Shown here: positions 11,925 through 19,317 of the stretch, in pieces
Position numbering within the stretch: position 1 is the stretch's first letter
Layout of the letters: every line of letters starts with the position of its first letter
Origin: Nitrospira sp.
GTDB taxonomy: Bacteria > Nitrospirota > Nitrospiria > Nitrospirales > Nitrospiraceae
Assembly (NCBI GenBank): GCA_020853775.1
Contig: JADYYH010000105.1
Location: 1-64,000 of the forward strand
Reading direction: 5' to 3'
Length of the DNA: 64,000 bases
The notes under the pieces: generated by a model
What the model saw: only the letters and a program-made list of their open reading frames with translations
Databases searched by the model: none
What the model was told of the DNA's origin: nothing
Position numbers and translations under genes: made by a program

Positions 11925-13196
11925 ATGGAATTGAAGACGCAGTTGCCGAAAGTCGGCATCGGACGACGATGCGGATCGATACAAGCTAATCTGGATGGGT
12001 ACCGAAAACTGATGAGCGAGGAGGCCTATGAGGAGCTGAGAACGCTCGCGAAAGAGCTTGAGGGCGTCAAAGTCTGTCATGTGAACTCGACGGCGGCCGG
12101 CGGGGGCGTGGCGGAACTGTTGGCAAGGTATGTGCCGATGCTGCAGGCGCTCGGTGTGCAGGCGGACTGGCGTTTGATCCATGGCGAACCTGATTTTTTT
12201 GCCATCACCAAGGCGTTCCATAACGCCCTGCAAGGCGGGCACTACGGCTTGGGGAAAGCGGCGCAGGACCTGTACCTCACGGTCAATGAACGCAGTGCCA
12301 AGGCGCTCGGCAATGACTACGATGTGTATATCGTGCACGACCCGCAGCCCGCGGCTATTCGACATTTTGCCGGGCCCCGTGATGCCAAATGGATCTGGCG
12401 GTGTCATATCGATAGCTCGGCGCCTGATAAAGAGGTCAGTCAGTTTTTGCGCCCGTTGCTCGAAGAGTATGAGGCGGTCGTCTTCACCATGAGCCAGTTC
12501 GTGCTGCCCCAATTGGCGGCGAAGCGGGTGGCCTTCATCGCTCCGGCCATCGATCCCCTTGCCACGAAGAATATGGAATTGCCTGAAGACTTGTGTCGGC
12601 GCGCGATCGCGGACTCCGGGGTTGATCCGACAAGGCCGTTGCTGTTGCAGGTGTCGCGGTTCGACCCCTGGAAGGATCCGCTCGGCGTGGTGCGCGCGTA
12701 TCGATTGGTCAAAGAAGAGATCCCGGAGGTGCAGCTCGTGCTCATCGGCGCGATGGCGGGCGACGATCCGGAGGGGTGGGAGATTCTGGATCGAGTCGAA
12801 GAAGAAGCTGCGAAGGATCCGGACCTGTTCGTGTTTACGAATCTCGCCGGGGTGGGGAGTATGGAGGTCAATGCGTTCCAGCGTGGCTGCGATGTGGTGA
12901 TCCAGAAGTCCTTGCGGGAGGGATTCGGGTTGGTCGTGTCCGAAGCGTTATGGAAGGAGAAGCCGGTGGTTGCCGGGAACACCGGAGGCATTCCCATGCA
13001 ATTTCCCGAGCCCTTTCAGAAGAATCTGGTCGACAGTGTGGAAGCCTGCGCGGAGCGGCTGCTCCATCTGCTGCAGCGACCGGGCGAACGTGGAGAGTTC
13101 GGCCGGGCGGGACGTGAACATGTGCGCCGCCATTTTCTGATGCCGCGGCTGGTACGCGATGAATTGCGGTTGATCAAACAGGTGTTGAGCGCCTGA
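11925..13196 (+). CDS. GT4 glycosyltransferase, trehalose synthase (TreT)-like
   Basis: HVNSTAAGGGVAELL, LLQVSRFDPWKDP, SLREGFGLVVSEALWKEKPVV motifs. Confidence 0.85.
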   Translation: MELKTQLPKVGIGRRCGSIQANLDGYRKLMSEEAYEELRTLAKELEGVKVCHVNSTAAGGGVAELLARYVPMLQALGVQADWRLIHGEPDFFAITKAFHNALQGGHYGLGKAAQDLYLTVNERSAKALGNDYDVYIVHDPQPAAIRHFAGPRDAKWIWRCHIDSSAPDKEVSQFLRPLLEEYEAVVFTMSQFVLPQLAAKRVAFIAPAIDPLATKNMELPEDLCRRAIADSGVDPTRPLLLQVSRFDPWKDPLGVVRAYRLVKEEIPEVQLVLIGAMAGDDPEGWEILDRVEEEAAKDPDLFVFTNLAGVGSMEVNAFQRGCDVVIQKSLREGFGLVVSEALWKEKPVVAGNTGGIPMQFPEPFQKNLVDSVEACAERLLHLLQRPGERGEFGRAGREHVRRHFLMPRLVRDELRLIKQVLSA

Positions 13197-14917
13197 TGAA
13201 CCACCCGAACAGCAAGGCCCAGGTCGCCTATTTTTCAATGGAGATCGGGCTCAATCCCTTGATGCCCACCTATGCCGGGGGATTGGGCGTACTGGCAGGC
13301 GACACGATCCACAGCGCCGCCGACCTCGGCGTGCCGATGGTCGGCGTGACGCTCCTGCATCGGCGCGGCTATTTCTACCAACGTCTCGATCGAGCGGGCT
13401 GGCAGTCAGAAGAGCCGGTGGCCTGGGCGATCCCTGATTATGCCGAGCCGTTGGAACCGCGCGTGTCCGTCGAGATCGAGGGGCGGGCGGTGCAGGTCCG
13501 TGCCTGGCGGCATCTCGTGACCGGCATGTCGGGCCATACCGTTCCCGTCTACTTGCTCGATACGGATCTTCCGGACAACAGTCCCTGGGACCGGACCATC
13601 ACGGATTCGCTCTACGGCGGCGATGCGCACTATCGATTGTGCCAGGAAATGGTGCTCGGGTTCGGCGGGTTTGCGCTGTTGCAAGCCCTGGGGCATGACC
13701 ACATCTATCGCTACCACCTCAACGAAGGGCATGCGGCCTTGTTGGTGCTGGCGTTGATCGAGGCTGAAATCCGCGGGGAGCCCGGAAACGGGGAAGTGCC
13801 TCCGGAGGTCATCGAGAAGGTGCGGGAGCACTGTGTGTTTACGACCCACACGCCGGTGCCGGCAGGCCACGATCAATTCCCCGCCGATCTTGCGCACCGC
13901 GTATTGGGGACACGTCGCTGCGACCTGGTCCAGGCCTGTCAACATCAAGGCGCCTTGAACATGACGCTGCTGGCGCTGCGCGGCTCCCGGTTTATCAACG
14001 GCGTGGCGATGCGGCACGGCGAGGTCTCCCATTCCCTCTATCCCGGCTACCCGATCCATTCGATTACGAATGGAGTGCACGCGGTGGCTTGGGCGTCTCC
14101 GGCCTTTCAACATCTCTACGACCGTCATCTGCCTGACTGGCGATACGATCACTTGTCGCTTCGTTACGCCATCAGTATTCCCGGTACAGAAATTTGGGCT
14201 GCCCATCGGGAGGCGAAGCTGGCGTTGGTCGATGTAGTGAATCGCGAGACCAACGCCGGGTTCGATCGAGATGTGTTCACGATCGGCTTCGCTCGCCGTG
14301 CCACCGCGTATAAACGAGGGATGTTGGTGTTTCGCGATGCTGAACGGTTGCAGCGATTGGGCAAACAGGTGGGCCCGATTCAGTTCGTCTTCGCGGGAAA
14401 GGCGCATCCCCAGGATCAGGTGGGCAAGGACGTGATTCGGCGCATTCACGCCATGCGCGGACAGCTATCCGTCGCCTATCTGGCTAATTACGATATGACG
14501 TTGGCCCGGCTGTTGTGCGCGGGCGTCGACGTATGGCTGAACACGCCGCTTCCGCCGATGGAAGCGTCCGGCACCAGCGGAATGAAGGCGGCGATGAACG
14601 GGGTTCCAAGCCTGAGTGTCCTGGACGGGTGGTGGGTCGAGGGGCATATCGAAGGGGTGACCGGCTGGTCGATCGGCGAGAAGCTCGACGCCTGCGCATC
14701 CCCCTCGGAGGATCTGGAGGCCTGCCATGCCGCCGCGCTTTATGACAAACTTGAACAGCATGTCCTGCCCTGCTTCTACAACGATCGAGACAGATTCATC
14801 GACATCATGAAGCACACCATTGCGATTAACGGGGCGTTTTTCAACACGCAGCGCATGGTCGGGCAATATCTGCGCAATGCCTATCGGTTGGTGGATCAGG
14901 CCGTCGGTGGAGCATAG
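13196..14917 (+). CDS. glgP: alpha-glucan (glycogen/maltodextrin) phosphorylase
   Basis: [36 protein letters not shown] phosphorylase motif; ATG overlaps preceding stop. Confidence 0.9.
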
Positions 14918-14921
14918 CCGT

Positions 14922-15452
14922 ATGGCTCAGAATCACGACATCATGCAGTCCGACTACAATCATCTGTTGACGCTTTGGACCTCCGGCGTTCGCGATTACC
15001 ACACCATGTTGTCGGATTACCTGACGGCCAACTCCATCTTTGTCGCGGTCATCGGCCTGCTCGTGTCCCGCGAATCCCTGGCCCTGCCGTTTACGCTGGT
15101 CATTGTGTTGCTGAGCACGATCGGGATTCTTATGAGCGCGCAGATGGCGATCGTGTTGGGCCGGTTTTCCGGACAGAACGCGTTGTGGGAATGGCAGCTG
15201 CGGGGAATTGAATCCCTGCCGGATTGGCAGGACCGAAAGCCGGTCAGTATGCTCTATCGGTTGCGCGAGCATCGGGAAACGATTGTGGATGAGACGAATG
15301 AGCCGCGCTCCTTCGCGCCCTCCTGGGCCTTCCGGCAACACCGCCAATGGTGGGCGCACCGGGCGGTCAGCTTTCCCTGGTTTTTCGGCACGGTCTACGG
15401 TCTCTTTCTGTTGTGGGGCGTGACACAGATTGCGAGGTCGCTGCCGGGATAG
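14922..15452 (+). CDS. hypothetical membrane protein
   Basis: Two TM segments each in N- and C-terminal regions; ORF follows glgP. Confidence 0.6.
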   Translation: MAQNHDIMQSDYNHLLTLWTSGVRDYHTMLSDYLTANSIFVAVIGLLVSRESLALPFTLVIVLLSTIGILMSAQMAIVLGRFSGQNALWEWQLRGIESLPDWQDRKPVSMLYRLREHRETIVDETNEPRSFAPSWAFRQHRQWWAHRAVSFPWFFGTVYGLFLLWGVTQIARSLPG

Positions 15453-15711: not shown

Positions 15712-15754
15712 AAGATAACACACGAAGATGAAGTCACGGTGAAGTCTTCATGAA
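15712..15754 (-). promoter_or_regulatory. Triple 11-bp direct repeat (TTCAT/TTCAC/TTCAT on minus strand) plus -10-like TATCTT
   Basis: ATGAA/GTGAA/ATGAA at 15728, 15739, 15750 on +; last repeat is 10 nt from TATCTT on minus strand. Confidence 0.7.
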
Positions 15755-15883
15755 GAAGCGTTCATACTGAGGGAAAGACCGATGAGTCTTGTTATGATCG
15801 CTCCGTCTGAGTGATTGAACGGCGGCGAACCGCGCTCATTTTGCGACAAGCATTGTGTCGGCGCGCGCGAAGCGAGGAGCACC

Positions 15884-16558
15884 ATGCGAATTCTGGTCAT
15901 CGAAGACGATGTCGATCTGGCTCAATTTCTCCGCAAAGGATTGGAAGAAGAGCGGCATACGGTGGAGGTGGCCGCCGACGGCGAAACCGGACTCATGCTG
16001 GCCGTGGATGAGAGTTATGACCTGCTGATTGTGGACGTGATGCTGCCCAAGGTGGACGGGCTGACGCTGTGCCGCCGCCTTCGTGAACGGGGAAACCGGT
16101 CTCCCATCCTGCTGCTCACCGCGCGGGATTCGGTGGAGGACAAGGTCGCCGGTCTCGATGCGGGAGCAGATGATTATCTGACGAAACCCTTCGCGTTCAC
16201 CGAACTCGTCGCGCGCATCAGAGCCCTCCTGCGGCGAGGCGGGCCGCACACCGGCAGCCGCCTGAAGGCCAAGGATCTGGAAATGGACCCGGCCTCCCGG
16301 CGCGTGTGGCGGGCGGGGAAGGAAATTACGCTCACGAGCAAAGAATTTTCCCTGTTGGAATTTCTGCTCAGGAACCGCGATATCGTTCTCACCCGCACGG
16401 CGATCCTTGAGCGCGTGTGGGGGTTGAACTATGATCCGATGACGAACGTGGTGGATGTCTACATCCGTTCCTTGCGCGTGAAGATCGACCGGGATTTCGC
16501 CTTCCCCTTGATCGGGACCGTGCGCGGCGTGGGCTACAAGCTGGAGGCGAGTGAGTGA
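15884..16558 (+). CDS. OmpR/PhoB-type response regulator
   Basis: MRILVIEDDVDLAQFLRKGLEE receiver, winged-helix LTSKEFSLLEFLLRN. Confidence 0.95.
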   Translation: MRILVIEDDVDLAQFLRKGLEEERHTVEVAADGETGLMLAVDESYDLLIVDVMLPKVDGLTLCRRLRERGNRSPILLLTARDSVEDKVAGLDAGADDYLTKPFAFTELVARIRALLRRGGPHTGSRLKAKDLEMDPASRRVWRAGKEITLTSKEFSLLEFLLRNRDIVLTRTAILERVWGLNYDPMTNVVDVYIRSLRVKIDRDFAFPLIGTVRGVGYKLEASE

Positions 16559-17979
16559 GCAGCTTTCGCGCCCAGTTCCGGCTGTATACGGTCGCCATGA
16601 TCGCGGCCTTGCTGGGTGGATTCAACGTGGTCGTCTACACGGGCTTTCATAGTCTGTTGCAGCAATATGTGGATGGTCGTCTGTTCGGTTTTGCGGATAC
16701 CCTGGCCGAGTTGATCGAGCAACGACCGGAACTGCTGAAACGATCGGACCATGAGATCGTGGTGCCGCGTGGCGCACAGGTGGCCGACGACCGGATGAAG
16801 GAACTCCGGGAACTGTCGCATTCCGTCCATATTCTGGCCCTCGATGGGACGGTCGTCTGGCAGGGGAGCGGCGTGGTGCCCAGGCCATCGGTCGATGAGG
16901 CGGTGCTGACGCGAGGCAAGCGGGGCGAAGTGGTGTATGAGACGCTCGAGATGGATTCAGGGGCGTCGGTGCGCCAGGTATTTGTTCCGATCCGGCAGCA
17001 GGATGAAGTGCGCTACCTGCTGCAAGCGGAAGAGTCCCTGGCGTTTTTTCGACGAACCCATCGAAGTCTCATGGGCCTGCTCATGCTTGGATCGGTTGCC
17101 GTCCTAGCCACATCCTGGTTCGGCAGCGGATGGTTGGCTCGGAAGGTGCTCGATCCGGTGGAAGCCTTGAGTCGCACGGCCGAGGGTATTTCGGAGTCAG
17201 CCTTGCGCTCGCGCGCCAACCTGAATGCGCCGTTTGAAGAATTCGAACGGTTGGCCCAAGCGTTTAATGCGATGCTGGACCGGTTGCAGCGGGCGTCCGA
17301 AAGCCAGCGACGGTTTACCGACTATGCCGCGCATGAGATGAAAACCCCGCTGACCGTGATGCAGGGCAATTTGGAAGTCGCCTTGCAGCGCTCGCGGTCG
17401 GCCGACGATTATCGCGACGTACTCGTCTCGAATCTCGAACAAGTGCAGCGCCTCATCGTGTTGACTCGGTCGCTCCTCACGCTCGCCCGCTTTGCCGGCG
17501 AGCGGCCGCCGGTAGAGCTGTCGGTGCTGGCGCTCCAGCCGCTGCTTAAAGAATTGATCGATGACCTGACGCCGGTCGCAGAGGACCGGCACCTGACATT
17601 GGTATTGGAAGAGGCGCCGGTACAGCCGGTGTTGGGAGATGCCGAGCGGCTCAAGCAAGTGTTCATCAATTTGCTGGATAACGCCATGCGCTATACGGAT
17701 CCGGGAGGAACCGTGGCGTTATGTCTGAGCAGCGCGCAGAATCAGGTGCGTGTGGCTGTTCGCGATACCGGGCAGGGGATTGCCCGCGAACATCTGCCGC
17801 ATCTCTTCGAACCCTTTTACCGGACCGATCCGGCTCGCGCCAGGGATTCAGGCGGACATGGCCTCGGCCTTCCGATCGTGAAAGAAATTGTGGAGGCGCA
17901 TCATGGCGCGATTGCCGTGGAAAGTGAAGTGGGAAAAGGGTCGATCTTCACGCTGACATTGCCCGCCGTCCACACGTAA
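16555..17979 (+). CDS. HAMP sensor histidine kinase
   Basis: H-box DYAAHEMKTPLTVMQGNLE, N-box LLDNAMRYTDPGG, G-boxes; overlaps regulator gene by 4 nt. Confidence 0.95.
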   Translation: MSSFRAQFRLYTVAMIAALLGGFNVVVYTGFHSLLQQYVDGRLFGFADTLAELIEQRPELLKRSDHEIVVPRGAQVADDRMKELRELSHSVHILALDGTVVWQGSGVVPRPSVDEAVLTRGKRGEVVYETLEMDSGASVRQVFVPIRQQDEVRYLLQAEESLAFFRRTHRSLMGLLMLGSVAVLATSWFGSGWLARKVLDPVEALSRTAEGISESALRSRANLNAPFEEFERLAQAFNAMLDRLQRASESQRRFTDYAAHEMKTPLTVMQGNLEVALQRSRSADDYRDVLVSNLEQVQRLIVLTRSLLTLARFAGERPPVELSVLALQPLLKELIDDLTPVAEDRHLTLVLEEAPVQPVLGDAERLKQVFINLLDNAMRYTDPGGTVALCLSSAQNQVRVAVRDTGQGIAREHLPHLFEPFYRTDPARARDSGGHGLGLPIVKEIVEAHHGAIAVESEVGKGSIFTLTLPAVHT

Positions 17980-18061
17980 CAGCCCATGGGCTCATTCCCT
18001 TCTTCGTGCTCGTATCTGTCTCATCGTCGGTGTGCCCCATCGCTCTCCCATGCGCTGCAGC

Positions 18062-18115
18062 ATGAAGAATTCTTCATGTGTCGTTCATCGGCACTTCATC
18101 TAGCCCGGCTAGAGT
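18062..18115 (+). promoter_or_regulatory. Triple TTCAT direct repeat at 11-bp period plus -10-like TAGAGT; overlaps perfect palindrome CATGAAGAATTCTTCATG
   Basis: TTCAT at 18073, 18084, 18095; TAGAGT 18110-18115, 10 nt after last repeat. Confidence 0.7.
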
Positions 18116-18175: not shown

Positions 18176-18286
18176 ATGAAACAGGTCACCACCTTGGCGC
18201 CGGTGATGTTGCTCATGGTCTTGGTCATGGCCGCGATGGGGATCATGATCTTCTGGGGCCTGTCCCTGCTCGACTTATCCCAGTGA
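18176..18286 (+). CDS. single-TM microprotein, 36 aa (MKQVTTLAPVMLLMVLVMAAMGIMIFWGLSLLDLSQ)
   Basis: Below ORF-track cutoff; SD GAAAGGG; ungapped similarity to 15554..15661 product (M1, L7, P9, L12, L16, G22, I25). Confidence 0.7.
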   Translation: MKQVTTLAPVMLLMVLVMAAMGIMIFWGLSLLDLSQ

Positions 18287-18306: not shown

Positions 18307-19317
18307 ATGGGAGACGCAGGGGATCATCTCGGCCGGCGATGGTCGATCATCCTCGCGGGAGGAGACGGAGTCCGGATGCAGCCGGTTGTGACGCGGTGGT
18401 TGGGCCGGACGATGGCGAATCACTATTGTCGATATCTCGGAACCAGGTCTCTGTTCCAGCACACGCTTGACCGCATGCTCTGCGTGACGAGTCCGGCTCG
18501 TTCGCTCGTGGTGGTCGGGCGTGGTCATCATGAAGCCTGGGCCCAGATTGGCCGGCGGAATCCCGGCATGGTCTTGGTGCAACCGCGTAATGCCGGCACG
18601 GCCGCCGGATTATTTCTTCCCTTGACCTATATTCGTGCGCGGGATCCGAGGGCGACGGTGGTGATTACTCCCGCCAATCAATTTGTCTATCCCGAAGATC
18701 GCCTGCTCGGGGAGATACTGTACGCGGTCCGGGCGGTGGAAATGTTGCCGGCGAAGGTGGTGGGGCTCGCCGCGCGCCCGGATGGACCGGACAGTGACTA
18801 TGGCTGGATCAAAGCCGATCATGAACTCATCAGGCTCGGCCTCAGGTCGATCCGGGCGGTCAAGACCGTCCTGCACAGGCCGGAGCCTCAGTTGGCGCGG
18901 TTGGCCTCTGCTTCGGGAGCGTTGTGGCAGACGGGCATCATGGCAGCCCGAGTTGAGACGTGGTGGAATCTGGGCCGGAGCATTCTGCCGGAGATGATGA
19001 GGCTCTTCGAACGGCTGGGCCAGGCGATCAATACTCCGAAGGAACCGCAGGTCCTCCGCGAGATTTACGAGCGTATGCCGGTCCGTAGTCTCTCGCGCGA
19101 TCTCCTGGCTGCTGTCCCCGGCGCAACAGCCGTGATGGAAATGCAGGGCGTCTGGTGGAGCGATTGGAGTCATCCGGAACGCATCATGCGCACGCTGATG
19201 CGGCTGGGCCGGGAGACGGCCTCGGTCATGCCGTATCTGAGAGCCGCGGTGGCTGCCGTCCCATCCGCGCAGGCGCTCGATACCGCCATGGCGCATCGTA
19301 CGATGGACGACTGGTAG
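18307..19317 (+). CDS. mannose-1-phosphate guanylyltransferase-like nucleotidyltransferase
   Basis: IILAGGDGVRMQPV N-terminus and PANQFVYPED; SD GAGAGGAGGG before ATG. Confidence 0.7.
   Translation: MGDAGDHLGRRWSIILAGGDGVRMQPVVTRWLGRTMANHYCRYLGTRSLFQHTLDRMLCVTSPARSLVVVGRGHHEAWAQIGRRNPGMVLVQPRNAGTAAGLFLPLTYIRARDPRATVVITPANQFVYPEDRLLGEILYAVRAVEMLPAKVVGLAARPDGPDSDYGWIKADHELIRLGLRSIRAVKTVLHRPEPQLARLASASGALWQTGIMAARVETWWNLGRSILPEMMRLFERLGQAINTPKEPQVLREIYERMPVRSLSRDLLAAVPGATAVMEMQGVWWSDWSHPERIMRTLMRLGRETASVMPYLRAAVAAVPSAQALDTAMAHRTMDDW

Follow-up and report, generated by a model that had tools for sequence, protein, structure and literature searches.

The window (the whole stretch of DNA that was analysed; 64,000 nucleotides of Nitrospira sp.) contains, on the plus strand, the gene for an OmpR/PhoB-type response regulator of 224 aa (15884-16558; Response_reg and Trans_reg_C domains), followed by the gene for a sensor histidine kinase of 474 aa (16555-17979; HAMP, HisKA and HATPase domains), and this pair lies between two triple arrays of direct repeats. 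The left triple operator, TTCAT-N6-TTCAC-N6-TTCAT, is on the minus strand (15754-15728; TTCATGAAGACTTCACCGTGACTTCAT) and is followed by CTTCGTGTGT (10 nt) and the putative -10 TATCTT (15717-15712; extended, TGT-TATCTT), which would form a microprotein promoter. The right triple operator, TTCAT-N6-TTCAT-N6-TTCAT, is on the plus strand (18073-18099; TTCATGTGTCGTTCATCGGCACTTCAT) and is followed by CTAGCCCGGC (10 nt) and the putative -10 TAGAGT (18110-18115). Each array leads into a small open reading frame, the left one into mpL (35 aa; 15661-15554, minus strand; MFLMPFLHPALLVFALLLVVTGFAIMILTADAFSD), of which the ribosome site (15676-15668; AAGGAGGTG) was called strong, and the right one into mpR (36 aa; 18176-18286, plus strand; MKQVTTLAPVMLLMVLVMAAMGIMIFWGLSLLDLSQ); one transmembrane (TM) helix was predicted for each. 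Arrays, spacings, enclosed gene pair and small frames were all as the earlier note had described them. The nucleotidyltransferase gene 3' of mpR (18307-19317, plus strand; NTP_transferase, mannose-1-phosphate-guanylyltransferase-like) is probably the second gene of the right transcript; in other genera, the nucleotidyltransferase has its own array. On the left, genes for a glycosyltransferase, a glucan phosphorylase and an 8xMP-like membrane protein (11925-15452) hold their order beside the array, even at loci without the two-component system (L107-L115).

The regulator matched PF00072 (2e-29) and PF00486 (4e-25), both past the cut-off, and thus has the domains of the OmpR/PhoB family; the arrays, direct repeats with a period of about 11 bp close to the -35 position, have the form of the operators that this family uses. 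The phospho-acceptor was assigned by position to D51. The closest NCBIfam model was TIGR01387 (heavy-metal regulator; 260.9 bits, below the cut-off of 279.2), and the score against the PhoB equivalog TIGR02154 was 199.7 bits (cut-off, 296.2). The kinase scored 256.1 bits against TIGR01386 (heavy-metal kinase; cut-off, 292.55), and among kinase cores of solved structure CusS matched its sequence best. It has two TM segments, an extracytoplasmic PAS/Cache-like sensor, HAMP, HisKA (H260) and HATPase. The model of the sensor (pLDDT 82) has a PAS/Cache-type fold resembling the CitA and WalK sensors; no ligand can be named because this similarity is weak (E-values of about 1e-4).

A scan of the window with the 27-mer pattern returned both arrays and one overlapping site at 3 mismatches. 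In the whole genome, three TTCAY boxes with up to 1 mismatch gave 8 matches (reversed control, 0). The genome-wide search for TTCAT-N6-TTCAT-N6-TTCAT-N10-TANNNT that the earlier note had proposed resolved into six distinct putative promoters, namely, the two of the window, a further one with four boxes at C105:102952-103005, two on contig C14 and one on contig C35; a third, weaker array on C14 lies beyond these six. The full architecture including the -10 was matched 71 times in 29 genus genomes (up to 2 mismatches, overlapping registers included; 0 control matches), and it was present in 88 of the 175 family genomes and, for the reversed control, in 0 of 175 (up to 1 mismatch). With zero matches for the reversed pattern in the own genome, the genus and the family, a chance origin of the arrays was ruled out. 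Note that the promoters were assigned by consensus only and that the 10-nt spacing in the genome scans was fixed by the search pattern itself; at the orthologous loci, the -10 of the right array stayed 10 nt from it in all of the 12 that have sequence. Pho boxes end about 10 nt before the -10. A -35 hexamer was not recognisable at these promoters, and the proximal box occupies its position.

Exactly 11 bp beyond each window array is a further half-site, ATGAA, in inverted orientation, which was absent from the earlier note (left, 15765-15761 on the minus strand, where the plus strand reads TTCAT; right, 18062-18066 on the plus strand). Over 109 arrays of the genus and other genera of the family, ATGAA within 1 mismatch was at the exact offset in 67, and a direct TTCAT stood there in 22. 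In many species the inverted half-site forms the palindrome ATGAAGAATTCTTCAT. The inverted box was found in the family, and at sister-family loci beside the regulator, and was rare in distant families. We describe the operator as having four boxes, of which the most distal is usually inverted.

Conservation of the arrays next to orthologous regulators, a check that the earlier note had named, came out in favour of its reading. In the genus, 13 genomes have a close orthologue of the pair, with at least 85% identity in the kinase; the 12 loci that have sequence all keep the right array together with its -10, and 12 of the 13 keep the left one. The minus-strand -10 and the microprotein of the left array are gone from five of the 13; the TAT at the -10 spacing was kept where species retain mpL and was lost in the five without it, and in further orthologous genomes mpL is degenerate with the boxes still present. 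On the plus strand, TATGAT was found 26-28 nt past the inverted half-site in 12 of 13 genomes (in the window 27 nt, 15793-15798), at a distance from the regulator start codon ranging from 40 to 108 nt, and it is the putative -10 of the regulator's own promoter. Because the array and this TATGAT are constant while mpL and the minus-strand -10 are lost, the main role of the left array is probably autoregulation. We read it as a bidirectional control region, which would serve autoregulation always and a microprotein in some species only. The reading of this array as a promoter dedicated to the microprotein was weakened, since the array persists in the five genomes without the -10 and microprotein.

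Both small frames of the window are under purifying selection, with a pN/pS of 0.41 for mpR (its alternative frames gave 0.67 and 2.9) and of 0.34 for mpL over five species. A profile search with mpR matched 20 genomes, all of this genus, and an array was upstream of 19 of the 19 script-checkable mpR-family genes found by the protein model alone, a count that includes the divergent C14 paralogues; for mpR orthologues the distance from array to gene is near-constant. A G.M..WG..LLDL core is conserved. In other genera, the arrays precede unrelated single-TM frames, such as MAVIVLGAIGATLLFGVLYKALSAGSE and MTVALIDALLFGGIFIFCMMGILGMGMEMVLRS. Under strict criteria (a frame of 22-60 aa with a TM helix, within 260 nt of the array and with a ribosome site of 5 nt or more), 20 of 63 other-genus arrays qualified, compared with 28 of 6127 positions chosen at random and 1 of 81 positions upstream of genes, and with a relaxed ribosome-site rule 28 of 63 against 89 of 5091 random positions (1.7%), so that the random rate of single-TM frames was 0.5-1.7%. 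Outside the family, a single-TM frame followed the array in 1 of 35 cases, which is the chance level, and a phylum-wide link between array and microprotein was rejected. Searches of Pfam and NCBIfam gave no above-cut-off match for mpR, mpL, mp2 and one C14 microprotein, and the other-genus microproteins, searched against Pfam only, gave none; KdpF, CydX and other known small-protein families were thereby ruled out. The mp2 gene (MLVLLALGGITCLVWGAILWLSFLDEKQ...), for a 48-aa TM microprotein, lies directly 3' of mpR in part of the genus (L058 4424, L059 6654, L057 6504); the window has none.

Presence of the arrays follows that of the regulator. Of the 175 family genomes, 78 have both, 27 the regulator only (presence threshold, E<1e-80), 10 the array only and 60 neither (p=1.5e-15, ignoring phylogeny), and within genera the p-values were 0.008 (g1), 0.004 (g15) and 3e-4 (g17), again with phylogeny ignored; these values are inflated because the genomes are related. 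Genera without this regulator type had 0 arrays in 27 genomes. Of 57 loci sampled in other genera, 22 have, next to the array, the regulator at about 64-72% identity or its kinase, and one or the other was found beside arrays in the sister family as well. Three arrangements of array and regulator recur (own divergent region, GT-RR-HK, and microprotein-RR-HK). In 10 genomes with a regulator of 66-68% identity, the pair follows immediately on the glycosyltransferase gene, which has an array of its own and which in the other clade lies far from the pair. Array loci of the 66-68% clade (L107-L110, L112-L115) lack the pair but retain the array with its flanking genes and, as a rule, the microprotein. 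Two genomes (G014, G025) have arrays and no regulator above 44% identity, a few g15 and g17 genomes have arrays without a close regulator, and in one genome with the regulator (G011) an array was not found within 2 mismatches. The next paralogue (about 50% identical; contig C61 of the own genome) is widespread in genera having no arrays, which weakened it as a candidate reader. In distant, AT-rich families of Nitrospirota, arrays occur without this regulator, and the inverted box is mostly lacking; arrays are also present in f32, f33 and f37 genomes that lack a close regulator. In G384, G340, G433 and other f33 genomes (L298-L324), AT-rich Nitrospirota with no close regulator homologue, the TTCAT direct repeats form longer runs, most of them devoid of the inverted box. 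Since TTCAT arrays exist in distant Nitrospirota without this regulator, the half-site code by itself lacks specificity. The proposal that the arrays are operators of this regulator was partly supported, by conservation beside orthologues and by co-occurrence across genomes.

As for the outputs, the earlier note had proposed a compact regulon of microproteins; single-TM microproteins are indeed a major output, but other gene classes are also behind arrays, namely, nucleotidyltransferases, a glycosyltransferase, the 348-aa lipoprotein, and putative PepSY-like and other exported proteins. From the positions of the arrays at several loci, we assign to the predicted regulon also the mannose-1-phosphate-guanylyltransferase-like gene, the glycosyltransferase and lipoproteins. 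The lipoprotein gene is preceded by the four direct TTCAT boxes at C105:102952-103005 (L009 6953-7005), which are kept in nine further genomes of the genus (L117-L125), in a neighbourhood of P-type ATPase, CBS and universal-stress genes. A putative second hub of the same regulon lies at C14:9239-12950 (L010). Its three arrays are all within 4 kb and would drive a pair of paralogous microproteins (GIM..GVWLLDLP) as well as a protein of 102 aa; in between are a hemerythrin-like gene and another nucleotidyltransferase gene. Arrays were also seen upstream of genes for 104-125 aa exported putative PepSY-like proteins (L073 3284, L074 8062, L165 1750, L174 2467, L176), where these genes adjoin a related regulator/kinase pair. 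We call the system a putative envelope response because most array-linked genes look like envelope functions.

Taken together, we consider it probable that a membrane-sensing two-component system activates mostly envelope genes via the TTCAT operators. The kinase, with its periplasmic PAS/Cache-like sensor, would phosphorylate the OmpR/PhoB-family regulator, molecules of which would occupy the three half-sites head-to-tail, 11 bp (about one helical turn) apart, aided in binding by the fourth, distal and usually inverted half-site; from the proximal box, over the missing -35, RNA polymerase would be recruited to a -10 lying exactly 10 nt further on, in class II activation of the kind that PhoB exerts at pho boxes. 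The outputs would be mostly of the envelope (single-TM microproteins of about 24-60 aa, the sugar-nucleotide transferase, the glycosyltransferase and lipoproteins), and the left array, being bidirectional, would also control transcription of the regulator. As for the microproteins, our best guess is an action on membrane complexes, which may include feedback on the kinase.

The same geometry might instead mark repressor sites, with the bound regulator blocking RNA polymerase. That the proximal box overlaps the -35 position is compatible, in geometry only, with such occlusion, but the lack of a recognisable -35 hexamer and the fixed 10-nt spacing of the -10 fit PhoB-like activation (PMC2695467, PMC3348028), and we regard repression as quite improbable. 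It is unlikely, though less so, that TTCAT-N6 is a general Nitrospirota code of true OmpR-type operators shared by several regulators, the neighbouring one being one reader among them or a minor one. Such sharing would account for the arrays in those genomes of f32, f33 and f37, in G014 and G025 and in the few g15 and g17 genomes that lack a close regulator; within the family, however, the arrays strongly track and adjoin this regulator type, and both the array-free genera that carry the C61 paralogue and the restriction of the inverted box speak against it.

If, on the other hand, the small frames were spurious, transcription from the arrays would yield small RNAs or leaders that are not translated, and the true outputs would be the larger genes downstream. 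Several arrays do lead directly to larger genes, and the small frames match nothing in annotation libraries; against this, the ribosome sites, the pN/pS of 0.34-0.41, the conserved core and the family-wide enrichment make such an explanation very hard to credit. Under the preferred activation by the two-component system, a narrower possibility, which we think less likely than not, is that the microproteins are MgrB-like feedback regulators dedicated to their cognate kinase. They are single-TM products of the regulator's own putative targets and are encoded beside the kinase, and MgrB is a precedent (PMC2789325), but their sequences are unrelated between genera, several copies are present per genome, and mpR persists at loci without the kinase.

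Whether the system extends so far as to be one family-wide two-component system, of which the commonest output class is unrelated single-TM microproteins, repeatedly recruited behind a four-box operator and forming a fast membrane-remodelling or kinase-tuning layer of the envelope response, seems to us evenly balanced. Regulators of this family and operators of this style are textbook matter, but the code of the operator, the regulon and the microproteins do not seem to have been described before. Our literature search, in which subscription journals were thinly covered, found no paper with this motif and nothing joining Nitrospira with small membrane proteins. Nitrospira are difficult to culture and central to nitrification, and the TTCAT operator offers a sequence address by which their unannotated membrane microproteins may be located. 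The recurrence of address, regulator and kind of output across the family makes a putative unrecognised response network directly testable, and raises the question of whether unrelated microproteins behind one operator converge on a single membrane target.

Among known systems, CusR/CzcR/CopR (TIGR01387) with CusS (TIGR01386) are the best-scoring NCBIfam subfamilies, both below the curated cut-offs. The operators of CusR-type regulators are inverted repeats, whereas the arrays described here are direct repeats. PhoB binds direct repeats (pho boxes) that overlap the -35, and touches sigma (PMC2695467, PMC3348028). The present system resembles it in a winged-helix regulator and in direct repeats of about 11 bp overlapping the -35 of the targets, and differs in the half-site (TTCAT here, TGTCA for PhoB), in having three direct boxes with a distal inverted one, and in a regulator that scores well below the PhoB equivalog cut-off. 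TorR, also of the OmpR family, recognises tor-box direct repeats with a TTCATA core (PMC5767261); the likeness is in the half-site only, and no torCAD-type targets were seen among the array-linked genes. In PhoPQ-MgrB, an OmpR-family regulator controls a small inner-membrane protein (PMC2789325), and a small membrane protein is a putative target of an OmpR-family regulator here too; the difference is that here many microproteins, unrelated to one another and without a family match, stand behind one operator across a bacterial family.
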